Of a stretch of 64,000 bases of DNA, positions 33,954-64,000 are shown piece by piece. The position numbers were made by a program, and so were the translations under genes. The notes under the pieces are model-generated. The model did no database searches. It was not told the DNA's origin and saw nothing but the letters and a program-made list of their open reading frames with translations. Each line of letters opens with the position of its first letter. The first letter of the stretch is position 1. This DNA comes from Cornus controversa (Eukaryota; Streptophyta; Magnoliopsida; Cornales; Cornaceae): contig CM048845.1 in the NCBI GenBank assembly GCA_026545225.1, forward strand, positions 91,576,533 through 91,640,532, given 5' to 3'.

Positions 33954-34082
33954 TAGGGATGGCAATTTGTCCCGTCCCGTTTAAGGAAACGGGGTGAGAA
34001 TGGGGTTAGGAAAAATAATTCGCACTTAAACGGGATGGGGACGGGGTAAGACCCTATCCCGACGAATACCCACACCTTTTAA

Positions 34083-34142
<60 letters not shown>

Positions 34143-37145: not shown

Positions 37146-37717
37146 ATTTTCAATTTGATTTTTTAACTTTTGATAGTGGATTAGCTTCCACCTATCATGT
37201 TATACCAGTCATTATATTTTTTAAGTAAAATAAATAATTAAAACTTAATATAAGTAAGAAGAAATAAATAACAAATCAATATCGTAATGTTTTAACTTTT
37301 TCAATTTCAATGTTAAATTGTAATGTAGATCTAGTTCGGTTGTGTTTGAAGACCCAAACCTAAAATATAATATTATTTTTTATTTTATATTCATTTAGAT
37401 ATAATAAAAAATATAAAGTGAATAATTTCAATGTTATGTGATAAGTTACCTTTGAATGTGTTGATTAACAAATGTGTAACTGTGATAATAGGCTTTTCGT
37501 TTATTAGTTTCATTATTAAATTTTCTTCATTCTCAGCAAGATCATCCCACAATGTCAAAGTACTTGAACTGTTATAAAAAATAATAATTCAATAATTTAT
37601 AATGGTAATTATGAGCATTTATGTATATCCATTATAATGATATCTCACAATTTAGATGTCCCTCCATTATTCTTCTTAGCTATGTTAAATGCAGACTTCA
37701 ATAATGATTTTCAAAGC

Positions 37718-38415: not shown

Positions 38416-41400
38416 CTCAAAGCATCTAGCGAGAGTAAAAATTAAACTTATAGATTTATATATAAGAGAAAGTATATATAAGGAGAATAAAGAGTTAAAA
38501 GAAAACAAACCTATATATATATTTTTTTCATCAATGTACTTGTTCAAGTCCTTAAAGTCCACAAAATTATATTTTATTTTTTTAAAACTTACAACTTCAA
38601 GCTCATCTCATATAATTTTATTTTAGATAATAATTCCATAAGTTTTACGGTATAACTTTAATTTTATATTAGTATATTATTTCACCATCAAAATAATAAA
38701 ATATCAAAGATATACGCGCACACACACACACACAATTACTAAAAGTACAAAGAGGTTTAAAAGTTTTATTAAATTTTTTATTTTTATAATGCATTCTTAT
38801 TTTTTTATTATAATATATTTATTTTAATAAATATATAGAAACATAATATTTCCATAAATCTTAAACACCAAGTGTTCTTTTCTAATTCTATTTATTATTT
38901 GCCTCAAACATTATCTCTAACAAAAAATTTTCCTATTTCAGAAAAAATAAAAATAACATTATAATTCATACTTTTATAAATTTTCTAATTCTATTTTTTT
39001 AATTTCAAAAATAAAAAAGAAAGGATTTTGTTGACTAATTCTATTTTTTTAATTTAAAAACAAAAAAATAGTGTACTGAAACTAAAAAACGCCTTTTGTA
39101 CTCTTAATAGTAGTATAGATTTTAAATTTTAAAAATAAAAAGGAAAGGGTTTTGCTTGGGTAATTCTATTTTTTTAATTTCAAAATAAAAAAGAAAATGA
39201 TTTTGCTTGAGTAATTCTATTTTTTTAATTTAAAAATAAAAAAAATAGTGTACTGAAACTAAAAATCCCCATTGTACTTTTAATAATAGTATAAATTTTT
39301 AATTTCAAAATAAATAGGAAAGGGTTTTGCTTTGGTAATTCTATTTTTTTAATTTTAAAATAAAAAAGGAAAGGATTTTGCTTGAGTAATTCTATTTTTT
39401 TAATTTAAAAATAAAAAATGAAAGGGTTTTGCTTTTTTAAATTTAGAAATTAGATATAAAGACAAAGGGTTTTGCTTGGAAAAGTGTTTTACTTGGGTCA
39501 TTTTATTTTTTTAATTTCAAAATAAAAAAGGAAAGGGGGTTTTGCTTGGCTAATTCTATTTTTTTAATTTTAAAATAAAAAAAGAAAGGATTTTGCTTTA
39601 GTAATTCTATTTTTTTAATTTAAAAATATAAAAAAGTGTATAGAAACTAAAAATCTCTTTGTACTTCTAATAGTAGTATAGTTAATGTACTGAAACTAAA
39701 ATCCCCTTTACACTTTTAATAGTAAGTATAGATTTTTAATTTCAAAATAAAAAAGGAAAATGTTTTTTATTTGCATAATTCTATTTTTTTTATTTCAAGA
39801 TAAAAAATGAAAGGATTTTACTTGAGTAATTTTATTTTTTTAATTTAAAAATAAAAAATGAAATGGTTTTGCTTTTTTAAATTTAGAAATTAGAAATAAA
39901 AAGAAAGGGTTTTGCTTGGAAAAAGATTTTACTTGGATAATTTTATTTTTTTAATTTCAAAATAAAAAAGGAAAGGGTTTTGCTTGGTAATTATATTTTT
40001 TTAATTTCAAAATAAAAAAGAAAGTGACTTTTTTTGAATAATTCTATTTTTTAATTTAAAAATAAAAAAATAGTATATTGAAACTAAAAACCTCTTTGTA
40101 CTTTTAATAGTACTATAAAATACTATTTTTTTAATTTTTTTAAAAAAATAGTGTACTGAAACTAAAACCACTTTGTACTTTTAATAGTAATATAGATTTT
40201 TAATTTCAAAATAAAAGGAAAGGGTTTTGCTTGGATAATTCTATTTTTTTATTTCAAAACAAAATAAGGAAAAGATATTGCTTGAGTAATTCTATTTTTT
40301 TAATTTAAAAATAAAAAAAATAGTGTACTGAAACTAAAAAGTCCCTTTGTATTTTTAATTTTGTACTTTTAATAGTAGTATAGAAATTCTATTTTTTTAA
40401 TTTTAAAATAAAAAAATAGTTTACTGAAACTAAAAAACTCCTCTGTACTTTTAATAGTAATATAGATTTTTTAATTTCAACATAAAAGGAAAGGGTTTTG
40501 TTTGGGTAATTCAAATTTTCTAATTTCAAAATAAAATAAGGAAAATATTTTGCTTGACTAATTCTATTTTTTTAATTTAAAAATAGATAATAGTGTACTG
40601 AAACTAAAAAGTCCCTTTGTATTTTTAATTTTGTAATTTTCATAGTATTATAGAAATTCTATTTTTTAAAATTTTAAAATAAAAAAATAGTGTATTGAAA
40701 CTAAAAAACAACTTTGAACTTTTCATACTAATATAGATTTTTAATTTCAAAATAAAAGGAAAGGGTTTTGCTTGGTTAATTCTATTTTTTTAATTTCAAG
40801 ATAAAATAAGAGAAAGATTTTACTTGAATAATTCTATTTTTTTAATTTAAAAATAAAAAAATAGTGTACTAAAAGTAAAAAATTCCTTTGTACTTTTAAT
40901 AGTAGTATAGATTTTAAATTTCAAAAATAAAAAGGAAAGAGTTTTGCTTGGGTAATTCTATTTTTTTAATTTCAAAACAAAAAAGAAAATTATTTTTGCT
41001 TGAGTACTTCTATTTTTTTAATTTAAAAATAAAAAATAATAGTGTATTGAAACTAAAAAAACCCCTTTGTACTTTCAATAGTAGTATAGATTTTTAATTT
41101 CAAAATAAAAAAGAAAAGAGTTTTATTTGGATAATTCTATTTTTTTAATTTAAAAATAAAAAAATAGTATATTGAAACTAAAAACCTCTTTGTACTTTCA
41201 ATAGTACTATAAGAATTCTATTTTTTTAATTTAAAAAAGAAATAGTGTATGGAAACGAAAAAACTCCTTTCCACTTTTAATACTAATATAGAATTTTAAT
41301 TTCAAAATAAAAGGAGAGGGTTTTGCTTGGATAATTTTATTTTTTTAATTTCAAAATAAAGAAGGAAACGATTTTGCTTGAATAATTCTATTTTTTTAAT

Positions 41401-41639
41401 TTAAAAATAAAAAAAATAGTGTACTGAAACTAAAAAACTCCTTTGTACTTTTAATACTAGTATAGATTTTTAGTTTCAAAATAAACGGAAAGGGTTTTGC
41501 TGGGTAAAATCTATTTTTTTAATTTCAAAATAAGAAAGGAAAGGATTATGTTTGAATAATTCTGTTTTTTTAATTTAAAAATAAAAAAAATAGTGTACTA
41601 AAAGTAAAAAACCACTTTGTACTTTTAATAGTAGTATAG

Positions 41640-43530
41640 ATTTTTAGTTTCAAAATAAAAGGAAAGGGTTTTGATGGATAAAATCTATTTTTTTAATTTT
41701 AAAATAAAAAAAGTAAAGGATTTTGCTTTAGTAATTCTATTTTTTTAATTTAAAGATAGAAAAAAGTGTACTGAAACAAAAACCTCTTTGTACTTTTAAT
41801 AGTAGTATAGTTAGTGTACTTAAACTAAAAACCCCTTTGCACTTTTAATAGTAAGTATAGATTTTTAATTTCAAAATACAAAAATAAAGCATTTTACTTG
41901 GGTAATTCTATTTTTTTATTTCAAAATGAAAAAGGAAAGTATTTTGCTTGAGTAATTATATTTTTTTAATTCAAAAATAAAATAAAAATAGTGTACTGAA
42001 ACTAAAAACCCCTTTGTACTTTTAACAGTAATACAAATTTTTAACTTCAAAATAAAAAGGAAAGGGTTTTGCTGGGTAAAATCTATTTTTTTAATTAGAA
42101 AATAAAAAAGGAATAAATTTTGCTTAGGAATTCTTTTTTTTTTAATTTAAAAATATAAAAAAGTGAACAGAAACTAAAAACCTCTTCAAACTTTTAATAG
42201 TAGTATAGTTAGTGTACTGAAACTAAAAACCCCTTTGCACTTTTAATAGTAAGTATAGATTTTTAATTTCAAAATAAAAAAAGACATGTTTTACTTTTGT
42301 AATCTTATTTTTTTATTTCAAAATGAAGAAGGATATAATTTTGATTGAGTAATTTTATTTTTTTAATTTAAAAATAAAACAATAGTGTACTGAAATTAAA
42401 AAATCTCTTTGTACTTTTAATAGTACTATAGATTTTAAATTTCAAAAATAAAAAAGAAAGGGTTTTGCTTGGTTATTCTATTTTTTTAATTTCAAAATAA
42501 AAAAGGAAATGATTTTCCTTGAGTAATTCTATTTTTTAAATTTTAAAATAAAAAAAAGTGTACTGAAATTAAAAAAATCTTTGTACTTTTAATAATAATA
42601 TAGATTTTAAATTTAAAAAATTAAAAGGAAAGGGTTTTGATTGTGTAATTCTATTATTTTAATTTCAAAATAAAAAGGAAAGGATTTTTTTGAGTAATTC
42701 TATTTTTTTAATTTAAAAATAAAAAAAAATAGTGTACGGAAATTAAAAAACTCCTTTGTACTTTTAATAGTAGTATAGATTTTTAGTTTCAAAATAAAAG
42801 AAAAGGGTTTTGCTGGGTAAAATCTATTTTTTTGATGGTTAAAATCTATTTTTTTAATTTTAAAATAAAAAAAGTAAAGGATTTTGCTTTAGTAATTCTA
42901 TTTTTTTAATTTAAAGATAGAAAAAAGTGTACTGAAACAAAAACCTCTTTGTACTTTTAATAGTAGTATAGTTAGTGTACTTAAACTAAAAACCCCTTTG
43001 CACTTTTAATAGTAAGTATAGATTTTTAATTTCAAAATACAAAAATAAAGCATTTTACTTGGGTAATTCTATTTTTTTATTTCAAAATGAAAAAGGAAAG
43101 TATTTTACTTGAGTAATTATATTTTTTTAATTCAAAAATAAAATAAAAATAGTGTACTGAAACTAAAAACCCCTTTGTACTTTTAACAATAATACAAATT
43201 TTTAACTTCAAAATAAAAAGGAAAGGGTTTTGCTGGGTAAAATCTATTTTTTTAATTAGAAAATAAAAAAGGAATAAATTTTGCTTAGGAATTCTTTTTT
43301 TTTTTAATTTAAAAATATAAAAAAGTGAACAGAAACTAAAAACCTCTTCAAACTTTTAATAGTAGTATAGTTAGTGTACTGAAACTAAAAACCCCTTTGC
43401 ACTTTTAATAGTAAGTATAGATTTTTAATTTCAAAATAAAAAAAGACATGTTTTACTTTTGTAATCTTATTTTTTTATTTCAAAATGAAGAAGGATATAA
43501 TTTTGATTGACTAATTCTATTTTTTTAATT
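41640..43530. repeat. 1.16-kb segmental duplication inside the older array
   Basis: The segment starting about 41640 recurs at an offset of about 1160 bp (TAAAGATAGAAAAAAGTG at 41751 and 42912) and stays nearly identical for roughly 700 bp, including rare variants such as TACAAAAATAAAGCATTTTA. It is a local block duplication in an otherwise diverged part of the array. Confidence 0.85.
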
Positions 43531-46500
43531 CAAAAATAAGAAAAATAGTGTAATGAACCAAAAAAACTCATTTTCTACTTTTAATAGTAAAATGAATTTT
43601 TAAATTCAGAATAAAAGTAAAAGGTTTTGCTTGGATATTCTATTTTTTTAATTTCAAAATAAAAAGGAAAGGATTTTCCTTGAGTAATTCTATTTTTTTA
43701 ATTTAAAAATAAAAAAATAGTGTACTGAAATTAAAAATTTCTTTGTACTTTTAATAGTAGTTTAGATTTTAAATTTAAAAAATAAAAAGGAAAGGATTTT
43801 GCTAGGTAAAATCTAGTTTTTTGAATTTTAAAATAAAAAAGTAAAGGGTTTTGCTTGGATATTCTATTTTTTTAATTTCAAAATAAAAAGGGAAGGATTT
43901 TCTTTGAATAATTCAATTTTTTTAATTTAAAAATAAAAAAATAGTGTACTGAAATTAAAAAATCCTTTTCTACTTTTAAAAGTAGTTTAGATTTTAAATT
44001 TAAAAAATAAAAAGGAAAGGGTTTGATTGTGCAATTATTATTTTTTATTTCAAAATAAAAAAAGAAAGGATTTTTTTCGATAATTCTACTTTTTTAATTT
44101 AAAAATAAAAAAATAGTGTACTGAAATTAAAAAATTCCTTTGTACTTTTAATATTAGTATAAATTTTAAATTTCAAAAATAAAAAGGAAAGGGTTTTGAT
44201 TGTGTAATTCTATTTTTTTAATTTCAAAATAAAAAACGAAAGGATTTCCCTCAAGTAATTCTACTTTTTTAATTTAAACATAAAAAACTAGTGTACCGAA
44301 ATTAAAAAATTTCTTTGTACTTTTAATATTAGTATAGATTTTAAATTTCAAAAATAAAAAGGAAAGGGTTTTGATTGTATAATTCTATTTTTTTAATTTA
44401 AAAATAAAAAAGGAAAGGATTTTCCTTGACTAATTCTACTTTTTTAATTTAAAAATAAAAAATAGTATACCGAAATGAAAAAACTCCTTCGTACTTTTAA
44501 TAGTAGTATAGTTTTTTAGTTTAAAATAAAAGGAAATGGTTTTACTGGGTAAAATCTATTTTTTTAATTTCAAAATAAGAAAGGAAAGGGTTACGCTTGG
44601 ATATTTTCTTTTTCTAATTTCAAAATAAAAAGTAAAGGGTTTTGCTTGGTTATTCTATTTTTTTAATTTCAAAATAAAAAATGAAATGATTTTCCTTCAG
44701 TAATTCTACTTTTTTAATTTAAAAATAAAAAAATAGTGTACCGAAATGAAAAAACTCCTTTGTACTTTTAATAGTACTATAGTTTTTTAGTTTAAAATAA
44801 AAGGAAATGGTTTTGCTGTGTAAAATCTATTTTTTTAATTTCAAAATAAGAAAGGATAGGATTATGCTTGGATATTTTCTTTTCTTAATTTCAAAATAAA
44901 AAGTAAATGGTTTTGCTTGGTTATTCTATTTTTTTAATTTCAAAATAAAAAAGATAGTGTACTGAAATTAAAAAAGTCTTTGTACTTTTAATAGTACTAT
45001 AGTTTTTTAGTTTCAAAATAAAAGGAAATGATTTTGCTGGGTAAAATCTATTTTTTTAATTTCAAAATAAGAAAGGAAACGATTATGCTTGAATAATTCT
45101 ATTTTTTTAATTTAAAAATAAAGAAAATAGTGTACTGAAACTAAAAAACCACTTTACAATTTTAATAGTAGTATAGATTTTTAGTTTCAAAATAAAAGGA
45201 AAGGGTTTTGCTGGTTAAAATCTATTTTTTTAATTTTAAAATAAAAAAGTAAAGGATTTAGCTTTAGTAATTCTATTTTTTTAATTTAAAGAAATAAAAA
45301 AGTGTACAGAAACAAAAAATCTCTTTGTACTTTTAATTGTAGTATAGTTAGTGTACTTAAACTAAAAACACTTTTGCACTTTTAATTGTAAATTTAGATT
45401 TTTAATTTCAAAATACAAAAATAAAGGATTTTACTTGGGTAATTCTATTTTTTTATTTCAAAATGAAAAAGGAAAGGATTTTACTTGAGTAATTATTATT
45501 TTTTAATTCAAAAATAAAAAAAATAGTGTACTAAAACTAAAAATCCCTCTGTACTGTTAATAGTAGTACAAACTTTTAACTTCAAAATAAAAAAGAAAGG
45601 GTTTTGCTGGGTAAAATCTTTTTTTTTAATTTGAAAATAAAAAAGGAATAAATTTTGCTATACTAATTCTATTTTTTTAATTTAAAATTTTAAAAAGGTG
45701 TACAGAAACTAAAAACCATTTTTTACTTTTAATGGTAGTATAGTTAGTGTACTGAAACTAAAATCCCCTTTGCACTTTCAATAGTAAGTACATATTTTTA
45801 ATTTGAAAATAAACAAGGAAATGGTTTTACTTGGGTAATTTTATTTTTTTATTTCAAAATGAAAAAGGAAATAATTTTGCTTGACAAATTCTATTTTTTT
45901 AATTCAAAAATAAGAAAAATAGTGTAATGAACCCAAAAAACTCATTTCTACTTTTAATAGTAAAATGAATTTTTAAATTCAAAATAAAAGTAAAAGGTTT
46001 TGCTTGGATATTCTATTTTTTTAATTTAAAAATAAAAAAGGAAAGAATTTTCTTTGAGTAATTCAATTTTTTTAATTTAAAAATAAAAAAATAGTGTACT
46101 GAAATTAAAAAATCATTTTCTACTTTTAATAGTAGTTTAGATTTTAAATTTAAAAAATTAAGAGGAAAGGGTTTTGATTTTGTAATTCTATTTTTTTCAT
46201 TTCAAAATAAAAAAGGAAAGGATTTTCTTTCTCTACTTTTTAATTTAAAAATAAAAAAATAGTATACTGAAATTAAAAAATTTCTTTGTACTTTTAATAT
46301 TAGTATAGATTTCAAATTTCAAAAATAAAAGGGAAAGGGTTTTGATTGTGTAATTCTATTTTGTTAATTTCAAAATAAAAAAGGAAAGTATTTCCCTTCA
46401 GTAATTCTACTTTTTTAATAGAAAAATAAAAAAATAGTGTACTGAAATTAAAATATTCCTTTGTACTTTTAATATTAGTATAGATTTTAAATTTCAAAAA

Positions 46501-49500
46501 TAAAAAGGAAAGGGTTTTGATTGTGTAATTCTATTTTTATAATTTCAAAATAAAAAAGGAAAGGATTTTCCTTGACTAATTCTATTTTTTTAATTGAAAA
46601 ATAAAAAAATAGTGTACCGAAATGAAAAAACTCCTTTGAACTTTTAATAGTAGTATAGTTTTTTAGTTTAAATTAAAAGGAAATGGTTTTGCTGGGTAAA
46701 ATCTATTTTTTTAATTTCAAAATAAGAAAGGAAAGGATTATGCTTGGATATTTTCTTTTTTTAATTTCAAAATAAAAAGTAAAGGGTTTTGCTTGGTTAT
46801 TTTATTTTCTTAATTTCAAAATAAAAAAGGAAATGATTTTCCTTCAGTAATTCTACTTTTTTAATTTAAAAAAAAAAAATAGTGTACTGAAATTAAAAAA
46901 CTCCTTTCTACTTCTAATAGTGGTATAGATTTTAAATTACAAAAATAAAAAGGAAAGGGTTTTGCTTGGTTATTCTAATTTTTTAATTTCAAAATAAAAC
47001 AGGAAAAGCATTTCCTTGAGTAATTCTATTTTTTTAATTTAAAAATAAAAAAGAAAGTGTACTGAAATTAAAAAACTCCTTTGTACTTTTAATAGTACTA
47101 TAGCTTTTTAGTTTCAAAATAAAAGGAAATGGTTTTGTTCGGTAAAATCTATTTTTTTAATTTCAAAATAAGAAAGGAAACGATTATGCTTGAATAATTC
47201 TATTTTTCTAATTATAAAATAAAAAAAATAGTCTACTGAAACTAAAAAATCACTTTGTAATTTTAATAGTAGTGTAGATTTTTAGTTTCAAAATAAAAGG
47301 AAAGGGTTTTGCTGGTTAAAATCTATTTTTTTAAATCTATTTGAAATTTAAAAAATAAAAAGAAAAGGGTTTTGATTGTGTAATTCTATTTTTTTCATTT
47401 CAAAATAAAAAAGGAAAGGATTTTCATTCAGTAATTCTAATTTTTTAATTTAAAAATAAAAAAATAGTGTACTGAATTTAAAAAATCCCTTTGCACTTTT
47501 AATATTAGTATAGATTTTAAATTTCAAAAATAAAAAGGAAAGGGTTTTGATTGTGTGAATCTATTTTTATAATTTCAAAACAAAAAAGAAAGGATTTTAC
47601 TTGACTAATTCTATTTTTTTTATTTAAAAATAGTAAAATAGTGTACTGAAATTAAAAATCCCTTTGTACTTTTAATAGTGGTATAGATTTTAATTTTCAA
47701 AAATAAAAAAGAAATGATTTTGCTTGGTTATTCTGTTTTTTTAATTGTAAAATAAAAAAGGAAAGGATTTTCTTTGAGTAATTCTATTTTTTTAACTTAA
47801 AAATTAAAAAAATAGTGTACTGAAATTAAAAAACTCCTTTGTACTTTTAACAGTAGTATAGATTTTATATTTCAAAAATAAAAAGAAAAGGGTTTTGCTT
47901 GGTTATTCTATTTTTTTAATTTCAAAGTAGAAAAGGAAAGATTTTTTTGGAGTAATTCAATTTTTTTAATTTAAAAATAAAAAAATAGTGTACTGAAATT
48001 GAAAAATCCCTTTGTACTTTTAATTAAAAAATTCTTTTCTACTTTTAATAGTAGTTTAGATTTTAAATTTAAAAAATAGAAAGGAAAGGGTTTTGATTGT
48101 GTAATTCTAATTTTTTAATTTCAAAATAAGGAAGGAAAAGATTTTCCTTCAGTAATTCTACTTTTTTAATTTCAAAATAAATAAATAGTGTACTGAAATT
48201 GAAAAATCCCTTTGTACTTTTAATATTAGTATAGATTTTAAATTTCAAAAAGAAAAAGGAAAGGGTTTTGATTGTGTAATTCTATTTTTATAATTTCAAA
48301 ATAAAAAAGAGATGGATTTTCCTTGAGTAATTTTTTTTTTTTAGTTTAAAAATAAAAAAATAGTGTACTGAAATTAAAAATCAATTTGTACTTTTAATAG
48401 TGGTATAGTTTCAAAATAAAATGATAGGGTTTTGTAGGGTAAAATTTATTTTTTAATTTTGAAATAAAAAAACAGTGTACTGAACCCTAAACCCTGAAAT
48501 TAAAATTAAAGGATTTTTTTTTATTGATTCAATTTTTTAATTTAAAAATAAAAAAACAGTGTACTGAAATTAAAAAACTCCTTTCTATTTTTAATAGTAC
48601 TATAGATTTTAAATTTCAAAAATAAAAAGGAAAGGGTTTTGATTGTGTAATTCTATTTTTTTTAATTTCAAAATAATAAAGGAAAGAATTTTCCTTGAAA
48701 AATTCATTGTTTCTAATTTAAAAATAAAAAGATAGTGTACTGAAATAAAAAAAACTCCTTTATACTTTTAAGAGTCGTATAGATTTTAAATTTCAAAAAT
48801 AAAAAGGAAAGGATCTTGCTTGGTTATTCTATTTTTTTAATTTCAAAGTAAAAAAGGAAAGGATTTTCCTTGAATAATTCAATTTTTCTAATTTAAAAAT
48901 AAAAAAATAGTGCACTTAAATTAAAAAATCCTTTAGTACTTTTAATGGTACTATAGATTTTAAATTTCAAAAATAAAAAAGAAAGGGTTTTGCTTGGTTA
49001 TTCTGTTTTTTTAATTTCAAAATAAAAAATGAAAGGATTTTCCTTGAATAATTCTATTTTTTTATTTTAAAAATAAAAAAATAGTGTACTGAAATGAAAA
49101 AACTCTTTGTACTTTTAATAGTAGTATAAATTTTAAATTTAAAAAATAAAAAGGGAAAGGTTTGATTCTGTAATTCTATTTTTCTAATTTCAAAATAAAA
49201 AGGAAAGGAATTTCCTTGAGTAATTCTTTTTTTTTTAATTTAAAAGTAAGAAAAGGAAAGGATTATGCTTCAAATAATTCTATTTTTTGAATTTAAAAAT
49301 AAAAAAATAGTTTACTAAAACTAAAAAATCACTTTGTACTTCTAATAGTAGTATAGATATCTAGTTTCAAAATAAAATGATAGGGTTTTCTATGGTATAA
49401 TTTATTTTTTTAATTTTGAAATTAAAATTAAAGTATTTTTTCTTATTAGTTGAATTTTTTAGTTTAAAAATAAAAAAATAGTGTACTGAAATTAAAAAAC

Positions 49501-50930
49501 TCATTTGTACTTTTAATAGTAGTATAGATTTTAAATTTAAAAAAAAAAAGGAAAGGGTTTTGATTTTGTAATTCTATTTTTCTAATTTCAAAATAAAAAA
49601 GGAAACGAATTTTCTTGAGAAATTTTATTTTTTTAATTTATAAATAAGAAAAATAGTCTACTGAAAATAAAAACTCCTTTGTACTTTTAACAATAGTATA
49701 GTTTTTAGTTTTAAAATAAAAGGAAATGGTTTTGCTGGGTAAAATCTATTTTTTTAATTTCAAAATAAGAAAGGAAAGGATTATGCTTGAATAATTCTAT
49801 TTTTTGAATTTAAAAATAAAAAAATAGTGTTCTGAAACTAAAAAATCACTTTGTACTTCTAATAGTAGTATAGATTTCTAGTTCCAAAATAAAATGATAG
49901 GGTTTTGTATGGTAAAATTTATTTTTTTAATTTTGAAATTAAAATTAAAGGATTTTTTTTTATTAATTCAATTTTTTAGTTTAAAAATAAAAAAACAGTG
50001 TACTGAAATTAAAAACTCCTTTGTATTTTTAATAGTACTATAGATTTTAAATTTCAAAAAGAAAAAGTAAAGAGTTTTGATTGTGTAATACTATTTTTTT
50101 TAATTTCAAAATAATGAAAGAATTTTCCTTGAAAAATCTTTTTTTCTAATTTCAAAATTAAAAATTAGTGTACTGAAATAAAAAAATCTCCTTTGTACTT
50201 TTAAGAGTCGTATAGATTTTAAATTTCAAAAATAAAAAGTAAAGAGTTTTGCTTGGTTATTCTATTTTTTTAATTTCAATGTAAAAAAGGAAAGGATTTT
50301 CCTTGAATAATTCAAGTTTTCTAATTTAAAAATAAAAAAATAGTGCACTTAAATTAAAAAATCCTTTAGTACTTTTAATGGTACTATAGATTTTAAATTT
50401 CAAAAATAAAAAGAAAGGGTTTTGCTTGGTTATTCTGTTTTTTTAATTTCAAAATAAAAAAGGAAAGGATTTTTCCTTGAGTAATTCTATTTTTTTGATT
50501 TAAAAATAAAAAAATAGCGTACTGAAATTAAAAAAACTCTTTGTACTTTTAATAGTAGTATAAATTTTAAATTTAAAAAATAAAAAGGGAAGGGTTTTGA
50601 TTTTGTAATTCTATTTTTCTAATTTCAAACTAAAAAAGGAAAGGAATTTCGTTGAGTAATTTTTTTTTTTTAATTTCAAAGTAAGAAAAGGAAAGGATTT
50701 TCCTTGACTAATTCTATTTTTTTAATTTAAAAATAAAAAAATAGTGTACTGAAATTAAAAAACTCTTTGTACTTTTAATAGTACTATAAATTTTAAATTT
50801 AAAATATAAAAAGGAAAGGGTTTTGATTTTGTAATTCTATTTTTTTAATTTCAAAATAAGGAAAATAATGTACTGAAATTAAAAACTATTTTGCACTTTT
50901 AACAGTAGTATAGTCTTTTAGTTTCGAAAT

Positions 50931-52788
50931 AAAAGGAAATGGTTTTGCTTGGTAAAATCTATTTTTTTAATTTCAAAATAAGAAAGGAAAGGATTATGCT
51001 TGAATAATTCTATTTTTTGAATTTAAAAATAAAAAAATAGTGTACTGAAACTAAAAAATCACTTTGTACTTCTAATATTAGTATAGATTTTTAGTTTCAA
51101 AATAAAATGATAGGGTTTTGTCTGGTAAAATTTATTTTTTTTATTTTTAAATTCAAAAAATAGAATTACTGAAATTAAAAAATTCTTTGTACTTTTAATA
51201 GTAGTATAAATTTTAAATTTCGAAAATAAAAAGGAAAAGGTTTTGCTTGGTTATTCTATTTTTTAAATTTCAAAGTAAAAAAGTAAAGGATTTTCCTTGA
51301 ATAATTAAATTTTTCTAATTTAAAAATATAAAAATAGTGTACTGAAATTAAAAAACTCTTTGAACTTTTAATCGTAGTATAAAATTTAAATATAAAAAAT
51401 AAAAAGGGAAGGGTTTTGATTTTGTAATTCTATTTTTCTAATTTCAAACTAAAAAAGGAAAGGAATTTCCTTGAGTAATTTTTTTTTTTTTTAATTTAAA
51501 AGTAAGAAAAGGAAAGGATTATGCTTCAAATAATTCTATTTTTAGAATTTCAAAATAAAAAAATAGTTTACTGAAACTAAAAAATCACTTTGTACTTCTA
51601 ATAATAGTATAGATTTCTAGTTTCAAAATAAAATGATAGGGTTTTGTATGGTTAAATTTATTTTTTTAATTTTGAAATTAAAATTAAAGGATTTTTTTTT
51701 ATTAATTGAATTTTTTAGTTTAAAAATAAAAAGATAGTGTACTGAAATAAAAAAAACTCATTTGTACTTTTAACAGTGGTATAGATTTTAAATTTCAAAA
51801 ATAAAAAGGAAAAGATTTTGCTTGGTTATTCTATTTTTTTAATTTCAAAGTAAAAAAGGAAAGAATTTTCCTTGAATAATTCAATTTTTCTAATTTAAAA
51901 ATAAAAAAATAGTGCACTGAAATTAAAAAATCCCTTAGTACTTTTAATGGTACTATAGATTTTAAATTTGAAAAATAAAAAGGAAAGGATTTTGTTTGGT
52001 TATTCTGTTTTTTTAATTTCAAAATAAAAAAGGAAAGGATTTTCCTTGAGTAATTCTATTTTTTTAATTTAAAAATAAAAAAATAGTATACTGAAATTAA
52101 AAAACTCTTTGTACTTTTAATAGTAGTATAAATTTTAAATTTAAAAAATAAAAAGGGAAGGGTTTTGATTTTGTAATTCTATTTTTCTAATTTCAAAATA
52201 AAATAGGAAAGGAATTTCCTTGAGTAATTCTTTTTTTTTTTTAATTTAAAAGTAAGAAAAGGAAAGGATTATGCTTCAAATAATTCTATTATTTGAATTT
52301 AAAAATAAAAAAATAGTGTGCTAAAACTAAAAAATCACTTTGTACTTCTAATAGTAGTATAGATTTATAGTTTAAAATAAAATGATATGGTTTTCTAGGG
52401 TAAAATTTATTTTTTAATTTTGAAATTAAAATTAAACGATTTTTTTTTATTAGTTGAATTTTTTACTTTAAAAATAAAAAAACAGTGTACTGAAATTAAA
52501 AAACTCTTTTGCACTTTTAATAGTAGTATAGATTTTAAATTTAAAAAATAAAAAGGAAAGGGTTTTGATTTTGTAATTCTTTTTTTTTTAATTTCAAAAT
52601 AAGGAAAATAATGTACTGAAATTAAAAAACTCTTTTGTACTTTTAATAGTACTATAGATTTTAAATTTAAAATATAAAAAGGAAAGGGTTTTCATTTTGT
52701 AATTCTATTTTTTTAATTTCAAAATAAGGAAAATAATGTACTGAAATTAAAAACTATTTTGCACTTTTAACAGTAGTATAGTCTTTTA
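50931..52788. repeat. satellite higher-order repeat, 1858-bp variant
   Basis: Bounded by consecutive copies of the marker GTTTCGAA (50931 and 52789). It is about 344 bp, or two monomers, longer than the standard 1514-bp unit. It is less homogeneous than copies to its right. Confidence 0.75.
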
Positions 52789-54302
52789 GTTTCGAAGTAA
52801 AAGGAAATGGTTTTGCTTGGTAAAATCTATTTTTTTAATTTCAAAATAAGAAAGGAAAGGATTATGCTTGAATAATTCTATTTTTTGAATTTAAAAATAA
52901 AAAAATAGTGTACTGAAACTAAAAAATCACTTTGTACTTCTAATAGTAGTATAGATTTTTAGTTTCAAAATAAAATGATAGGGTTTTGTTTGGTAAAATT
53001 TATTTTTTTAATTTTGAAATTAAAATTAAAGGATTTTTTTTTATTAATTCAATTTTTTAGTTTAAAAATAAAAAAACAGTGTACTGAAATTAAAAAACTC
53101 CTTTGTATTTTTAATAGTACTATAGATTTTAAATTTCAAAAATAAAAAGGAAAGGGTTTTGCTTGGTTATTCTATTTTTTTAATTTCAAAGTAAAAAGGA
53201 AAAGATTTTCCTTGAATAATTCAATTTTTCTAATTTAAAAATAAAAAAATAGTGCACTGAAATTAAAAAATCCTTTAGTACTTTTAATGGTACTATAGAT
53301 TTTAAATTTCAAAAATAAAAAGGAAAGGGTTTTGCTTGGTTATTCTGTTTTTTTAATTTCAAAATAAAAAAGGAAAGGATTTTCCTTGACTAATTCTATT
53401 TTTTTAATTTAAAAATAAAAAAATAGTGTACTGAAATTAAAAAACTCTTTGTACTTTTAATAGTAGTATAAATTTTAAATTTCAAAAGTAAAAAGCAAAG
53501 GGTTTTGCTTGGTTATTCTATTTTTTTAATTTCAAAGTAAAAAAGTAAAGGATTTTCCTTGAATAATTCAATTTTTCTAATTTAAAAATAAAAAAATAGT
53601 GTACTGAAATTAAAAAAACTCTTTGAACTTTTAATCGTAGTATAAAATTTAAATTTAAAAAATAAAAAGGGAAGGGTTCTGATTTTGTAATTCTATTTTT
53701 CTAATTTCAAAATAAAATAGGAAAGGAATTTCCTTGAGTAATTCTTTTTTTTTTTTAATTTAAAAGTAAGAAAAGGAAAGGATTATGCTTCAAATAATTC
53801 TATTATTTGAATTTAAAAATAAAAAAATAGTGTGCTAAAACTAAAAAATCACTTTGTACTTCTAATAGTAGTATAGATTTATAGTTTAAAATAAAATGAT
53901 ATGGTTTTCTAGGGTAAAATTTATTTTTTAATTTTGAAATTAAAATTAAACGATTTTTTTTTATTAGTTGAATTTTTTACTTTAAAAATAAAAAAACAGT
54001 GTACTGAAATTAAAAAACTCTTTTGCACTTTTAATAGTAGTATAGATTTTAAATTTAAAAAATAAAAAGGAAAGGGTTTTGATTTTGTAATTCTTTTTTT
54101 TTTAATTTCAAAATAAGGAAAATAATGTACTGAAATTAAAAAACTCTTTTGTACTTTTAATAGTACTATAGATTTTAAATTTAAAATATAAAAAGGAAAG
54201 GGTTTTGATTTTGTAATTCTATTTTTTTAATTTCAAAATAAGGAAAATAATGTACTGAAATTAAAAACTATTTTGCACTTTTAACAGTAGTATAGTCTTT
54301 TA
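52789..54302. repeat. satellite higher-order repeat, 1514 bp, copy A
   Basis: A 9-unit block measured between GTTTCGAA markers. Unit lengths along one full period (52911-54425) are 171, 173, 174, 173, 231, 169, 126, 125 and 172 bp, which sum to 1514. Confidence 0.88.
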
Positions 54303-55817
54303 GTTTCGAAGAAAAAGGAAATGGTTTTGCTTGGTAAAATCTATTTTTTTAATTTCAAAATAAGAAAGGAAAGGATTATGCTTGAATAATTCTATTTTTT
54401 GAATTTAAAAATAAAAAAATAGTGTACTGAAACTAAAAAATCACTTTGTACTTCTAATAGTAGTATAGATTTTTAGTTTCAAAATAAAATGATAGGGTTT
54501 TGTTTGGTAAAATTTATTTTTTTAATTTTGAAATTAAAATTAAAGGATTTTTTTTTATTAATTCAATTTTTTAGTTTAAAAATAAAAAAACAGTGTACTG
54601 AAATTAAAAAACTCCTTTGTATTTTTAATAGTACTATAGATTTTAAATTTCAAAAATAAAAAGGAAAGGGTTTTGCTTGGTTATTCTATTTTTTTAATTT
54701 CAAAGTAAAAAGGAAAAGATTTTCCTTGAATAATTCAATTTTTCTAATTTAAAAATAAAAAAATAGTGCACTGAAATTAAAAAATCCTTTAGTACTTTTA
54801 ATGGTACTATAGATTTTAAATTTCAAAAATAAAAAGGAAAGGGTTTTGCTTGGTTATTCTGTTTTTTTAATTTCAAAATAAAAAAGGAAAGGATTTTCCT
54901 TGACTAATTCTATTTTTTTAATTTAAAAATAAAAAAATAGTGTACTGAAATTAAAAAACTCTTTGTACTTTTAATAGTAGTATAAATTTTAAATTTCAAA
55001 AGTAAAAAGCAAAGGGTTTTGCTTGGTTAGTCTATTTTTTTAATTTCAAAGTAAAAAAGTAAAGGATTTTCCTTGAATAATTCAATTTTTATAATTTAAA
55101 AATAAAAAAATAGTGTACTGAAATTAAAAAAACTCTTTGAACTTTTAATCGTAGTATAAATTTTAAATTTAAAAAATAAAAAGGGAAGGGTTCTGATTTT
55201 GTAATTCTATTTTTCTAATTTCAAAATAAAATAGGAAAGGAATTTCCTTGAGTAATTCTTTTTTTTTTTTAATTTAAAAGTAAGAAAAGGAAAGGATTAT
55301 GCTTCAAATAATTCTATTATTTGAATTTAAAAATAAAAAAATAGTGTGCTAAAACTAAAAAATCACTTTGTACTTCTAATAGTAGTATAGATTTATAGTT
55401 TAAAATAAAATGATATGGTTTTCTAGGGTAAAATTTATTTTTTAATTTTGAAATTAAAATTAAACGATTTTTTTTTATTAGTTGAATTTTTTACTTTAAA
55501 AATAAAAAAACAGTGTACTGAAATTAAAAAACTCTTTTGCACTTTTAATAGTAGTATAGATTTTAAATTTAAAAAATAAAAAGGAAAGGGTTTTGATTTT
55601 GTAATTCTTTTTTTTTTAATTTCAAAATAAGGAAAATAATGTACTGAAATTAAAAAACTCTTTTGTACTTTTAATAGTACTATAGATTTTAAATTTAAAA
55701 TATAAAAAGGAAAGGGTTTTGATTTTGTAATTCTATTTTTTTAATTTCAAAATAAGGAAAATAATGTACTGAAATTAAAAACTATTTTGCACTTTTAACA
55801 GTAGTATAGTCTTTTAG
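54303..55817. repeat. satellite higher-order repeat, ~1515 bp, copy B
   Basis: Same unit order as the preceding block, with only scattered substitutions: GAAGAAAAAGG for GAAGTAAAAGG at the marker, and TTAGTC for TTATTC near 55027. Confidence 0.88.
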
Positions 55818-58251
55818 TTTCGAAATAAAAGGAAATGGTTTTGCTTGGTAAAATCTATTTTTTTAATTTCAAAATAAGAAAGGAAAGGATTATGCTTGAA
55901 TAATTCTATTTTTTGAATTTAAAAATAAAAAAATAGTGTACTGAAACTAAAAAATCACTTTGTACTTCTAATAGTAGTATAGATTTTTAGTTTCAAAATA
56001 AAATGATAGGGTTTTGTTTGGTAAAATTTATTTTTTTAATTTTGAAATTAAAATTAAAGGATTTTTTTTTATTAATTCAATTTTTTAGTTTAAAAATAAA
56101 AAAACAGTGTACTGAAATTAAAAAACTCCTTTGTATTTTTAATAGTACTATAGATTTTAAATTTCAAAAATAAAAAGGAAAGGGTTTTGCTTGGTTATTC
56201 TGTTTTTTTAATTTCAATATAAAAAAGGAAAGGATTTTCCTTGACTAATTCTATTTTTTTAATTTAAAAATAAAAAAATAGTGTACTGAAATTAAAAAAC
56301 TCTTTGTACTTTTAATAGTAGTATAAATTTTAAATTTCAAAAGTAAAAAGGAAAGGGTTTTGCTTGGTTATTCTATTTTTTTAATTTCAAAGTAAAAAAG
56401 TAAAGGATTTTCCTTGAATAATTCAATTTTTCTAATTTAAAAATAAAAAAATAGTGCACTGAAATTAAAAAATCACTTAGTACTTTTAATGGTACTATAT
56501 ATTTTAAATTTCAAAAATAAAAAGGAAAGGGTTTTTGTTTGGTTATTCTGTTTTTTTAATTTCAAAATAAAAAAGGAAAGGATTTTCCTTGACTAATTCT
56601 ATTTTTTTAATTTAAAAATAAAAAAATAGTGTACTGAAATTAAAAAACTCTTTGTACTTTTAATAGTAGTATAAATTTTAAATTTCAAAAGTAAAAAGGA
56701 AAGGGTTTTGCTTGGTTATTCTATTTTTTTAATTTCAAAGTAAAAAAGTAAAGGATTTTCCTTGAATAATTCAATTTTTCTAATTTAAAAATAAAAAAAT
56801 AGTGTACTGAAATTAAAAAAACTCTTTGAACTTTTAATCGTATTATAAAATTTAAATTTAAAAAATAAAAAGGGAAGGGTTTTGATTTTGTAATTCTATT
56901 TTTCTAATTTCAAACTAAAAAAGGAAAGGAATTTCCTTGAGTAATTTTTTTTTTTTAATTTAAAAGTAAGAAAAGGAAAGGATTATGCTTCAAATAATTC
57001 TATTTTTAGAATTTCAAAATAAAAAAATAGTTTACTGAAACTAAAAAATCACTTTGTACTTCTAATAATAGTATAGATTTCTATTTTCAAAATAAAATGA
57101 TAGGGTTTTGTATGGTAAAATTTATTTTTTTAATTTTGAAATTAAAATTAAAGGATTTTTTTTTATTAATTGAATTTTTTAGTTTAAAAATAAAAAGATA
57201 GTGTACTGAAATAAAAAAACTCCTTTGTACTTTTAACAGTGGTATAGATTTTAAATTTCAAAAATAAAAAGGAAAAGATTTTGCTTGGTTATTCTATTTT
57301 TTTAATTTCAAAGTAAAAAAGGAAAGAATTTTCCTTGAATAATTCAATTTTTCTAATTTAAAAATAAAAAAATAGTGCACTGAAATTAAAAAATCCCTTA
57401 GTACTTTTAATGGTACTATATATTTTAAATTTCAAAAATAAAAAGGAAAGGGTTTTTGTTTGGTTATTCTGTTTTTTTAATTTCAAAATAAAGAAGGAAA
57501 GGATTTTCCTTGAGTAATTCTATTTTTTTAATTTAAAAATAAAAAAATAGTGTACTGAAATTAAAAAAACTCTTTGAACTTTTAATCGTAGTATAAAATT
57601 TAAATTTAAAAAATAAAAAGGGAAGGGTTTTGATTTTGTAATTCTATTTTTCTAATTTCAAAATAAAATAGGAAAGGAATTTCCTTGAGTAATTCTTTTT
57701 TTTTTTAATTTAAAAGTAAGAAAAGGAAAGGATTATGCTTCAAATAATTCTATTATTTGAATTTAAAAATAAAAAAATAGTGTGCTAAAACTAAAAAATC
57801 ACTTTGTACTTCTAATAGTAGTATAGATTTATAGTTTAAAATAAAATGATATGGTTTTCTAGGGTAAAATTTATTTTTTAATTTTGAAATTAAAATTAAA
57901 CGATTTTTTTTTATTAGTTGAATTTTTTACTTTAAAAATAAAAAAACAGTGTACTGAAATTAAAAAACTCTTTTGCACTTTTAATAGTAGTATAGATTTT
58001 AAATTTAAAAAATAAAAAGGAAAGGGTTTTGATTTTGTAATTCTTTTTTTTTTAATTTCAAAATAAGGAAAATAATGTACTGAAATTAAAAACTCTTTTG
58101 TACTTTTAATAGTACTATAGATTTTAAATTTAAAATATAAAAAGGAAAGGGTTTTGATTTTGTAATTCTATTTTTTTAATTTCAAAATAAGGAAAATAAT
58201 GTACTGAAATTAAAAACTATTTTGCACTTTTAACAGTAGTATAGTCTTTTA
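55818..58251. repeat. satellite higher-order repeat, 2434-bp variant
   Basis: Same frame with about 920 bp extra, equal to four ~172-bp units plus one 231-bp unit. The extra part includes the TATTTTTAGAATTTCAAAAT variant (about 57000). Confidence 0.85.
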
Positions 58252-59765
58252 GTTTCGAAATAAAAGGAAATGGTTTTGCTTGGTAAAATCTATTTTTTTA
58301 ATTTCAAAATAAGAAAGGAAAGGATTATGCTTGAATAATTCTATTTTTTGAATTTAAAAATAAAAAAATAGTGTACTGAAACTAAAAAATCACTTTGTAC
58401 TTCTAATAGTAGTATAGATTTTTAGTTTCAAAATAAAATGATAGGGTTTTGTTTGGTAAAATTTATTTTTTTAATTTTGAAATTAAAATTAAAGGATTTT
58501 TTTTTATTAATTCAATTTTTTAGTTTAAAAATAAAAAAACAGTGTACTGAAATTAAAAAACTCCTTTGTATTTTTAATAGTACTATAGATTTTAAATTTC
58601 AAAAATAAAAAGGAAAGGGTTTTGCTTGGTTATTCTATTTTTTTAATTTCAAAGTAAAAAGGAAAAGATTTTCCTTGAATAATTCAATTTTTCTAATTTA
58701 AAAATAAAAAAATAGTGCACTGAAATTAAAAAATCCTTTAGTACTTTTAATGGTACTATAGATTTTAAATTTCAAAAATAAAAAGGAAAGGGTTTTGCTT
58801 GGTTATTCTGTTTTTTTAATTTCAAAATAAAAAAGGAAAGGATTTTCCTTGACTAATTCTATTTTTTTAATTTAAAAATAAAAAAATAGTGTACTGAAAT
58901 TAAAAAACTCTTTGTACTTTTAATAGTAGTATAAATTTTAAATTTCAAAAGTAAAAAGCAAAGGGTTTTGCTTGGTTAGTCTATTTTTTTAATTTCAAAG
59001 TAAAAAAGTAAAGGATTTTCCTTGAATAATTCAATTTTTATAATTTAAAAATAAAAAAATAGTGTACTGAAATTAAAAAAACTCTTTGAACTTTTAATCG
59101 TAGTATAAATTTTAAATTTAAAAAATAAAAAGGGAAGGGTTCTGATTTTGTAATTCTATTTTTCTAATTTCAAAATAAAATAGGAAAGGAATTTCCTTGA
59201 GTAATTCTTTTTTTTTTTTAATTTAAAAGTAAGAAAAGGAAAGGATTATGCTTCAAATAATTCTATTATTTGAATTTAAAAATAAAAAAATAGTGTGCTA
59301 AAACTAAAAAATCACTTTGTACTTCTAATAGTAGTATAGATTTATAGTTTAAAATAAAATGATATGGTTTTCTAGGGTAAAATTTATTTTTTAATTTTGA
59401 AATTAAAATTAAACGATTTTTTTTTATTAGTTGAATTTTTTACTTTAAAAATAAAAAAACAGTGTACTGAAATTAAAAAACTCTTTTGCACTTTTAATAG
59501 TAGTATAGATTTTAAATTTAAAAAATAAAAAGGAAAGGGTTTTGATTTTGTAATTCTTTTTTTTTTAATTTCAAAATAAGGAAAATAATGTACTGAAATT
59601 AAAAAACTCTTTTGTACTTTTAATAGTACTATAGATTTTAAATTTAAAATATAAAAAGGAAAGGGTTTTGATTTTGTAATTCTATTTTTTTAATTTCAAA
59701 ATAAGGAAAATAATGTACTGAAATTAAAAACTATTTTGCACTTTTAACAGTAGTATAGTCTTTTA
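58252..59765. repeat. satellite higher-order repeat, 1514 bp, copy C
   Basis: Standard 9-unit block, nearly identical to copy B, including the same CAATTTTTATAATTT and GTATAAATTTTAAATTT variants. Confidence 0.88.
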
Positions 59766-61854
59766 GTTTCGAAATAAAAGGAAATGGTTTTGCTTGGTAA
59801 AATCTATTTTTTTAATTTCAAAATAAGAAAGGAAAGGATTATGCTTGAATAATTCTATTTTTTGAATTTAAAAATAAAAAAATAGTGTACTGAAACTAAA
59901 AAATCACTTTGTACTTCTAATAGTAGTATAGATTTTTAGTTTCAAAATAAAATGATAGGGTTTTGTTTGGTAAAATTTATTTTTTTAATTTTGAAATTAA
60001 AATTAAAGGATTTTTTTTTATTAATTCAATTTTTTAGTTTAAAAATAAAAAAACAGTGTACTGAAATTAAAAAACTCCTTTGTATTTTTAATAGTACTAT
60101 AGATTTTAAATTTCAAAAATAAAAAGGAAAGGGTTTTGCTTGGTTATTCTGTTTTTTTAATTTCAAAATAAAAAAGGAAAGGATTTTCCTTGACTAATTC
60201 TATTTTTTTAATTTAAAAATAAAAAAATAGTGTACTGAAATTAAAAAACTCTTTGTACTTTTAATAGTAGTATAAATTTTAAATTTCAAAAGTAAAAAGG
60301 AAAGGGTTTTGCTTGGTTATTCTATTTTTTTAATTTCAAAGTAAAAAAGTAAAGGATTTTCCTTGAATAATTCAATTTTTCTAATTTAAAAATAAAAAAA
60401 TAGTGTACTGAAATTAAAAAAACTCTTTGAACTTTTAATCGTATTATAAAATTTAAATTTAAAAAATAAAAAGGGAAGGGTTTTGATTTTGTAATTCTAT
60501 TTTTCTAATTTCAAACTAAAAAAGGAAACGAATTTCCTTGAGTAATTTTTTTTTTTTTAATTTAAAAGTAAGAAAAGGAAAGGATTATGCTTCAAATAAT
60601 TCTATTTTTAGAATTTCAAAATAAAAAAATAGTTTACTGAAACTAAAAAATCACTTTGTACTTCTAATAATAGTATAGATTTCTATTTTCAAAATAAAAT
60701 GATAGGGTTTTGTATGGTAAAATTTATTTTTTTAATTTTGAAATTAAAATTAAAGGATTTTTTTTTATTAATTGAATTTTTTAGTTTAAAAATAAAAAGA
60801 TAGTGTACTGAAATAAAAAAACTCCTTTGTACTTTTAACAGTGGTATAGATTTTAAATTTCAAAAATAAAAAGGAAAAGATTTTGCTTGGTTATTCTATT
60901 TTTTTAATTTCAAAGTAAAAAAGGAAAGGATTTTCCTTGACTAATTCTATTTTTCTAATTTAAAAATAAAAAAATAGTGCACTGAAATTAAAAAATCCCT
61001 TAGTACTTTTAATGGTACTATATATTTTAAATTTCAAAAATAAAAAGGAAAGGGTTTTTGTTTGGTTATTCTGTTTTTTTAATTTCAAAATAAAGAAGGA
61101 AAGGATTTTCCTTGAGTAATTCTATTTTTTTAATTTAAAAATAAAAAAATAGTGTACTGAAATTAAAAAAACTCTTTGAACTTTTAATCGTAGTATAAAA
61201 TTTAAATTTAAAAAATAAAAAGGGAAGGGTTTTGATTTTGTAATTCTATTTTTCTAATTTCAAAATAAAATAGGAAAGGAATTTCCTTGAGTAATTCTTT
61301 TTTTTTTTAATTTAAAAGTAAGAAAAGGAAAGGATTATGCTTCAAATAATTCTCTTATTTGAATTTAAAAATAAAAAAATAGTGTGCTAAAACTAAAAAA
61401 TCACTTTGTACTTCTAATAGTAGTATAGATTTATAGTTTAAAATAAAATGATATGGTTTTCTAGGGTAAAATTTATTTTTTAATTTTGAAATTAAAATTA
61501 AACGATTTTTTTTTATTAGTTGAATTTTTTACTTTAAAAATAAAAAAACAGTGTACTGAAATTAAAAAACTCTTTTGCACTTTTAATAGTAGTATAGATT
61601 TTAAATTTAAAAAATAAAAAGGAAAGGGTTTTGATTTTGTAATTCTTTTTTTTTTAATTTCAAAATAAGGAAAATAATGTACTGAAATTAAAAAACTCTT
61701 TTGTACTTTTAATAGTACTATAGATTTTAAATTTAAAATATAAAAAGGAAAGGGTTTTGATTTTGTAATTCTATTTTTTTAATTTCAAAATAAGGAAAAT
61801 AATGTACTGAAATTAAAAACTATTTTGCACTTTTAACAGTAGTATAGTCTTTTA
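59766..61854. repeat. satellite higher-order repeat, 2089-bp variant
   Basis: About 575 bp longer than the standard, equal to two ~172-bp units plus one 231-bp unit. It shares the TATTTTTAGAATTTC variant (about 60603) with the 2434-bp block but lacks two of that block's monomers. Confidence 0.85.
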
Positions 61855-63368
61855 GTTTCGAAATAAAAGGAAATGGTTTTGCTTGGTAAAATCTATTTTT
61901 TTAATTTCAAAATAAGAAAGGAAAGGATTATGCTTGAATAATTCTATTTTTTGAATTTAAAAATAAAAAAATAGTGTACTGAAACTAAAAAATCACTTTG
62001 TACTTCTAATAGTAGTATAGATTTTTAGTTTCAAAATAAAATGATAGGGTTTTGTTTGGTAAAATTTATTTTTTTAATTTTGAAATTAAAATTAAAGGAT
62101 TTTTTTTTATTAATTCAATTTTTTAGTTTAAAAATAAAAAAACAGTGTACTGAAATTAAAAAACTCCTTTGTATTTTTAATAGTACTATAGATTTTAAAT
62201 TTCAAAAATAAAAAGGAAAGGGTTTTGCTTGGTTATTCTATTTTTTTAATTTCAAAGTAAAAAGGAAAAGATTTTCCTTGAATAATTCAATTTTTCTAAT
62301 TTAAAAATAAAAAAATAGTGCACTGAAATTAAAAAATCCTTTAGTACTTTTAACGGTACTATAGATTTTAAATTTCAAAAATAAAAAGGAAAGGGTTTTG
62401 CTTGGTTATTCTGTTTTTTTAATTTCAAAATAAAAAAGGAAAGGATTTTCCTTGACTAATTCTATTTTTTTAATTTAAAAATAAAAAAATAGTGTACTGA
62501 AATTAAAAAACTCTTTGTACTTTTAATAGTAGTATAAATTTTAAATTTCAAAAGTAAAAAGGAAAGGGTTTTGCTTGGTTATTCTATTTTTTTAATTTCA
62601 AAGTAAAAAAGTAAAGGATTTTCCTTGAATAATTCAATTTTTATAATTTAAAAATAAAAAAATAGTGTACTGAAATTAAAAAAACTCTTTGAACTTTTAA
62701 TCGTAGTATAAAATTTAAATTTAAAAAATAAAAAGGGAAGGGTTTTGATTTTGTAATTCTATTTTTCTAATTTCAAAATAAAATAGGAAAGGAATTTCCT
62801 TGAGTAATTCTTTTTTTTTTTTAATTTAAAAGTAAGAAAAGGAAAGGATTATGCTTCAAATAATTCTATTATTTGAATTTAAAAATAAAAAAATAGTGTG
62901 CTAAAACTAAAAAATCACTTTGTACTTCTAATAGTAGTATAGATTTATAGTTTAAAATAAAATGATGTGGTTTTCTAGGGTAAAATTTATTTTTTAATTT
63001 TGAAATTAAAATTAAACGATTTTTTTTTATTAGTTGAATTTTTTACTTTAAAAATAAAAAAACAGCGTACTGAAATTAAAAAACTCTTTTGCACTTTTAA
63101 TAGTAGTATAGATTTTAAATTTAAAAAATAAAAAGGAAAGGGTTTTGATTTTGTAATTCTTTTTTTTTTAATTTCAAAATAAGGAAAATAATGTACTGAA
63201 ATTAAAAAACTCTTTTGTACTTTTAATAGTACTATAGATTTTAAATTTAAAATATAAAAAGGAAAGGGTTTTGATTTTGTAATTCTATTTTTTTAATTTC
63301 AAAATAAGGAAAATAATGTACTGAAATTAAAAACTATTTTGCACTTTTAACAGTAGTATAGTCTTTTA
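61855..63368. repeat. satellite higher-order repeat, 1514 bp, copy D
   Basis: Standard 9-unit block. The next copy starts at 63369 and is cut by the window end. Confidence 0.88.
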
Positions 63369-64000
63369 GTTTCGAAATAAAAGGAAATGGTTTTGCTTGG
63401 TAAAATCTATTTTTTTAATTTCAAAATTAGAAAGGAAAGGATTATGCTTGAATAATTCTATTTTTTGAATTTAAAAATAAAAAAATAGTGTACTGAAACT
63501 AAAAAATCACTTTGTACTTCTAATAGTAGTATAGATTTTTAGTTTCAAAATAAAATGATAGGGTTTTGTTTGGTAAAATTTATTTTTTTAATTTTGAAAT
63601 TAAAATTAAAGGATTTTTTTTTATTAATTCAATTTTTTAGTTTAAAAATAAAAAAACAGTGTACTGAAATTAAAAAACTCCTTTGTATTTTTAATAGTAC
63701 TATAGATTTTAAATTTCAAAAATAAAAAGGAAAGGGTTTTGCTTGGTTATTCTATTTTTTTAATTTCAAAGTAAAAAGGAAAAGATTTTCCTTGAATAAT
63801 TCAATTTTTCTAATTTAAAAATAAAAAAATAGTGCACTGAAATTAAAAAATCCTTTAGTACTTTTAATGGTACTATAGATTTTAAATTTCAAAAATAAAA
63901 AGGAAAGGGTTTTGCTTGGTTATTCTGTTTTTTTAATTTCAAAATAAAAAAGGAAAGGATTTTCCTTGACTAATTCTATTTTTTTAATTTAAAAATAAAA

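Follow-up and report, generated by a model that had tools for sequence, protein, structure and literature searches.

A 64,000-nucleotide window of the Cornus controversa genome (C1:91,576,533-91,640,532; contig CM048845.1 of GCA_026545225.1, an assembly of 772 Mb in 61 contigs) contains the beginning of a satellite array attached to a Helitron. On well-supported sequence evidence the array unit represents a real Helitron 5' terminus (the first ~175 bp) from an abundant family, and the satellite was probably made from this terminus in two steps. In the first, aberrant rolling-circle replication would have linked interior positions of an element to the TC terminus of that element; the resulting composite Helitrons would carry several 5' ends in tandem, and some of these composites would have spread. 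In the second, a composite at C1:91.6 Mb would have grown by ordinary unequal exchange, with single units first and blocks of about nine later, and the attached element would have lost ~1.8 kb at the joint. A preliminary description of the window had invoked repeated initiation at the 5' end or failed termination; such events may account for the seed only, the bulk of the array being due to later amplification of higher-order repeats.

Of the array, the first 25,016 bp lie in the window (38985..64000, minus strand, ~173 bp per unit). The full array is uninterrupted over 137,970 bp, has a GC content of ~18% and ends at C1:91,753,486, as found by reading 120 kb beyond the window. It contains 795 5' ends (at most 6 mismatches), all on one strand as had been described from the window, and the gaps in their spacing never exceed 600 bp. 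The 21-mer ACTTTTAATAGTAGTATAGAT, which is A/TCTATACTACTATTAAAAGT read on the plus strand (slashes mark element boundaries), was matched 110 times in the window with up to 2 mismatches, always in the same orientation, and had no match in 100 dinucleotide shuffles. With up to 6 mismatches, 140 motif sites were found on the minus strand, spaced mostly by 171-175 bp, the leftmost at 39119. The motif is thus present in nearly every ~172-bp monomer, as claimed, but the exact A/TC is intact in a part of them only (82/140 sites with exact ATCT in the window; 473/795 in the full array). Seven stretches to the left of 38985 were tested for satellite remnants and none scored above 200 shuffles. An inverted unit fragment at 38734 (3 edits) was equalled by 3 of 100 shuffles and was considered unconvincing given that several tests were made. 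Viral contigs searched with a 22-mer of the unit gave 0 matches.

The unit was compared with dispersed relatives. Pattern CTTTTAATAGTAGTATAGAT (20-mer, at most 1 mismatch) gave 931 + 600 = 1,531 genomic matches (control, 1), of which the main array accounts for 407 and other places, including a second array described below, for 1,124. Twenty-six loci outside the main array were read, all on C1 and all selected for the exact 20-mer; locus L040, on C2, was added for the boundary profile (27 loci). Over the first ~135 bp, identity to the closest array unit was 0.835-0.962 in 18/26 dispersed loci and intermediate in L017 and L026 (0.70 and 0.74), and six loci were alike little past the terminus (0.62-0.69). 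For the 19 family loci among the 27, the mean majority-base fraction was 0.47 at -40 to -6, 0.85 at -5 to -1 and 0.97 at +1 to +26; the search pattern dictated the first 19 bases and the A ahead of TC, and left the upstream drop and the sequence farther downstream unselected. TATA directly preceded TC at 21/27 loci. The dispersed loci therefore carry a 5' TC terminus with a sharp edge to unrelated host DNA. The unit consists of a terminal piece, U (~68 bp), and a ~51-bp subrepeat, S, that is usually present twice; in their 5' region, L012, L023 and L024, which are dispersed elements, likewise have U and then S repeats.

The maize Hel1-4 constructs read A/TCTATACTAC...CTAG/T and have published empty sites (PMC10095026, Table 3), which is independent proof that TCTATACTAC is a Helitron terminus. 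The derivation of the satellite from a Helitron 5' end, proposed in the preliminary description, is well supported by the matching loci, the sharp TC boundary and the maize terminus. Two findings had been named there as contrary to it: a genome-wide satellite with no tie to Helitron 5' ends, and absence of the terminus from Helitrons with empty-site evidence. Neither was obtained: the motif is indeed genome-wide, but the dispersed elements at the loci read begin with it, and for TCTATACTAC as a terminus empty-site evidence exists in maize. The statement that the leftmost copy sits exactly where the adjoining Helitron begins was circular from the window alone, since 39119 had been chosen by the motif; the genome data support it independently. 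A hexamer stutter (TCTATA or CTATA repeated just before TCTATACTAC) was seen at the L024 and L021 junctions and in the 5' flanks of L001, L007, L011, L014, L015, L026, L027 and L040; it looks as if the first bases had been copied repeatedly, or as if the target carried that sequence.

Within the window, 88/140 units measure 165-180 bp; these 88 fall into 37 types at 95% identity, and the mean pairwise identity is 0.82. An anchor placed inside U identified 802 units, of which 786 begin with at most 4 mismatches to TCTATACTAC; 15 of the remaining 16 read as the same start with an extra base. The 658 units of a homogenised core (C1:91.629-91.741 Mb; window part 52459..64000, minus strand, higher-order repeat ~1.51 kb) reduce to 15 types, ordered mostly FGDECB and then IAH, AHA or a variant, in ~70 blocks of ~1.5 kb. 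The share of units with an exact twin was 0 up to 91.627 Mb, rose to 0.57-1.00 at 91.627-91.741 Mb, fell to 0.18 over the following 6 kb and was 0 from there on. Two classes of junction, B (18 sites) and C (4 sites), are confined to the array edges, and the unit closest to the dispersed elements (0.962) lies near the far edge. The diverged, mixed edges and the homogenised core suggest that the edges keep the older state and that the core is a later amplification. The locus thus has the form of satellite DNA, with units head to tail over a long distance, a homogenised core and diverged edges, and its many 5' ends, which all point the same way, are accompanied by one 3' end, at 33933; the scan for further 3' ends covered the window's part of the array, where the scores of 3 queries stayed within the range of 60 shuffles each. 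A recent duplication of ~1.16 kb was noted in the otherwise diverged near edge (window 41765-42258 and 42926-43420); monomers 42209 and 43371 are 99.4% identical.

Tandem 5' ends were also found at dispersed loci: two in L021, three each in L013, L025, L026 and L040, and five in L024. The 40-bp flanks of the second and third 5' ends are alike at 0.97 in L013 and L026 and at 0.75 in L025, and the first 5' end of these three loci has a different flank (0.37-0.59). The flanks in L024 are less clear (0.38-0.74), partly owing to repeated TCTATA hexamers. Junction A (GAAATTTAAAA or GAAATTAAAAA, followed by TC) gave 466 genomic matches with at most 2 mismatches (control, 6); among the 100 of these that were listed, at least ten loci lie outside both arrays, and two, L024 and L040, were read. 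L040 has a TATA/TC start, then junction A, then a restart where junction B lies. Locus L013 carries, in addition, its own tandem repeat, a ~90-bp piece present about twelve times. Whole elements in tandem (AAACTAGT and then TCTATACTAC within 12 bp) were sought as well; 4 genomic sites were found against 16 (9 and 7) for the reversed pattern, and no excess was seen. Locus L023 holds two family Helitrons head to tail (CTAGTATA/TCTATACTAC), with 3 bases between the 3' end and the next 5' end.

Of the 85 genomic matches to junction B (control, 0), 69 are plus-strand sites at C1:39.951-39.981 Mb and 15 belong to the main array; the last is a look-alike on C2 (3 mismatches). The first group marks a second array (C1:39,947,871-39,980,566; L039 and L041) of the same satellite, on the strand opposite to that of the main array. 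The 4 kb read from it contain a ~2.5-kb repeat and junction classes A, B and C, as in the main array. On its 3' side the second array stops inside a unit and abuts another AT-rich repeat, rich in GTTTGGGGTTT.

The Helitron next to the main array has, as had been proposed, a body and a genuine 3' end on the correct side (33933..38984, minus strand). Compared with L023 it lacks ~1.8 kb beside the 5' end and contains later insertions. The terminal part of the 3' end lies at 33933..33950, with CTAG and the host T at 33936-33933. A CTRR end with a preceding hairpin is present, and in the window the hairpin, ACGTGCATCGCACGT, is broken by an insert of ~480 bp (approximate limits 33951..34420) lying between two copies of the 10-bp repeat ATCGCACGTA. 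The uninterrupted 3' end, which like the body recurs across C1-C10, has 103 + 114 = 217 genomic matches (at most 2 mismatches; control, 0). A second insert (37718..38415), flanked by GCTTTGA at each side, is absent from L023, and a ~1.5-kb stretch (35650..37153), absent from the first Helitron of L023, was read as another insertion. For the body segment 38416-38984, 39 other near-full-length copies with 89-92% identity were found on C1-C10 (40 scored of 838 candidates). For at least nine of these 39 copies, the 100 of 217 3'-end matches listed include one that lies 0.7-2.4 kb downstream in the same orientation. One of these nine is L023, a 3.3-kb element holding TC, a collinear body and CTAG/T; its termini read TATA/TC...CTAG/T, where A and T were already contained in the patterns searched for. 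No RepHel protein was seen: open frames in 33933-39119 all fall short of 200 aa, and the element would be at most a non-autonomous member. Some plant Helitrons carry replication protein A (RPA). Pieces of RPA-like frames were seen by eye at window 34698-37588 (minus strand) and were unconfirmed by Pfam, PDB and a large protein search.

The last (3'-most) array unit (38985..39119, minus strand; 135 bp from TC to the joint) matches array units best at 0.924 and dispersed elements at 0.91. The joint itself (38975..39000, minus strand) connects a satellite subrepeat to the Helitron interior inside a common AATAGAATTA motif. From TC to the point equivalent to 38984, L023 measures ~1.95 kb against 135 bp in the window. 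Both joined sequences carry AATAGAATTA, so that the joint looks like recombination between a subterminal and an internal repeat. A deletion inside the original composite is the preferred reading over a later join, because the strand and the order of the parts are kept. The source element and the array do adjoin, as the preliminary description had it, but the joint is unique to this locus and skips ~1.8 kb that L023 has.

The mechanism of the first step was assessed at six resolved junction kinds (L022 and L026 were left out) by the base with which an uninterrupted relative continues. After normal A/T insertion this base should be T. It is A at junction A, class C, L013 (10/10 interior copies) and L025 (one relative, L020), and C at L021, a weak reading in which the alignment stops short and the base was taken from L012. 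Restarts fall at TC in loci with differing junctions. The five kinds without T, together with the TC restarts, favour the joining of internal points to TC over self-insertion, in which a Helitron enters an A/T site in the subterminal repeats of another member, placing two 5' ends in series, and the composite is then mobilised when transposition starts at the outer 5' end and stops at the first 3' end (the FoHelis model from Fusarium). Self-insertion has been published for short (<200 bp) 5' duplications (PMC5148889), agrees with junction B, where the uninterrupted unit goes on with T, and with the A that precedes the restart in most junction kinds; given the other five kinds, it is regarded as unlikely here. 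Still less probable is unequal exchange alone, by which subrepeats of one Helitron 5' end would have slipped and expanded without transposition machinery. The core clearly evolves in this manner and 51-bp subrepeats are present in the 5' region, but slippage would have no reason for choosing the terminus, at which nearly all inner-anchor units begin and at which independent loci with other junctions also restart. Formation of the array by rolling-circle amplification of 3'-truncated templates may thus be favoured over A/T self-insertion from these comparisons, and work on Helraiser backs circles as donors (PMC5876387). Several points weigh against the two-step account. The T at junction B fits A/T insertion; the TC restarts were partly favoured by locus selection, with few exceptions in the inner-anchor check (a few dispersed units start away from the terminus, e.g. 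L024 at 4615); we infer the mechanism of the first step from sequence; the main array breaks off at its far edge within a subrepeat, not at a host TC; and the 5' flank of the window's element is the array, which precludes an empty-site test. The joining sequence, moreover, has a single genomic occurrence, its other match (C9, 3 mismatches) being an ordinary element interior; the 2.5 kb read at the second array's 3' side gave, with three queries, no hit to the body from the window, to L023 or to L012; and array and body may have come together at a later time.

These last points bear on the possibility, held to be somewhat doubtful, that the array is unrelated to the neighbouring Helitron (33933-38984) and was joined to it by ectopic recombination through the common AATAGAATTA. 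The uniqueness of the joint would suit this, as would the lack of a Helitron in the 2.4 kb next to the 3' side of the second array; arrays are therefore not always beside a Helitron. Against it, body and array belong to the same family and strand with their parts in the right order, the 3' end is on the expected side, and an internal deletion takes fewer steps. A collapsed or expanded assembly is most improbable as the source of the array. Long identical higher-order repeats do assemble poorly, but no N occurs in the 120 kb fetched past the window, both sides have diverged edges, 252 distinct unit sequences are present among the 795, and the higher-order units vary in order. The length of the array may be off; its existence is not in doubt.

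Alpha-satellite-like higher-order repeats have 171-175-bp units, a multimeric core and diverged edges, as does the array described here, which differs in its origin from a transposon end and in being far smaller. Among Helitrons, tandem truncated copies are known from plant centromeres, including CentHel (Xiong, Dooner and Du, 2016, Plant J 88:1038, as cited in PMC12628747, PMC7348941 and PMC10095026). Arrays with many 5' ends and a single 3' end, of several to several hundred repeats, were reported from 27 plant genomes and attributed to rolling-circle replication (Xiong et al., 2016, as summarised in PMC12628747). The main array shares with these the many 5' ends, the single 3' end and the truncated tandem units, and, as those summaries describe them, is set apart by its ~173-bp unit, its 795 5' ends and its higher-order core. 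It is thus a large example of an already described plant kind with unusually good intermediates, and the joined element and array are less unusual than the preliminary description took them to be. FoHelis of Fusarium oxysporum similarly repeat short 5' segments ahead of one 3' terminus, in versions that vary by genome (PMC5148889), but with two or few copies instead of hundreds, and their A/T self-insertion misfits five of the six junction kinds resolved here. In the animal Helitron and Helentron satellites DINE-TR1 and Cg170/HindIII, as presented in PMC12628747 and PMC9659126, part of a Helitron likewise becomes or carries a satellite and one-sided array-Helitron joins are reported; the repeats there are mostly central inside the element, whereas the present unit begins at the 5' terminus. 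A literature search found no array that combines a 5' unit of this small size with a higher-order core, within a coverage that excluded most subscription papers, Xiong 2016 included.

Satellite births are usually hard to resolve, because the founders are no longer present. The genome studied here still contains elements with a single 5' end, composites with two to five, a second array and the 138-kb array, and identifiable junctions are shared among them, so that the seed step (TC joining) and the expansion step (higher-order block exchange) can be tested separately. The two published models of multi-5'-end Helitrons are distinguishable by a junction census, and the small intermediate forms may show the route from transposon end to satellite. 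A broader proposal, put forward tentatively and with less than even confidence, is that the Helitron machinery repeatedly links its own TC, outside the A/T rule, to arbitrary positions inside the element, making mobile composites with two to five 5' ends; the common junctions would trace both C1 arrays, in their opposite orientations, to such composites followed by higher-order-repeat evolution, and the whole path from transposon end to satellite would be preserved. If so, the transposase would have a distinct side reaction, joining specifically at TC, and satellites would have a dedicated route by which they are seeded.

Other features of the locus were recorded. A fragment of an IDD transcription factor gene lies ~20 kb from the array (best match Cornus florida, 80%). 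Several repeats based on GGAACCGGAACCGT occupy window 332-958, and identical 300-bp direct repeats at 3610-3909 and 7584-7883, 3,974 bp apart, are perhaps the ends of a young long terminal repeat (LTR) element. A Copia-like reverse transcriptase frame at 23323-24033 (Pfam RVT_2, below cut-off) is flanked by repeats like CATGTATAGGATAA..TGCTCCCC at 22359-22463 and 24236-24341; a similar string occurs at C1:~91,754,430, ~0.9 kb beyond the far edge of the array.

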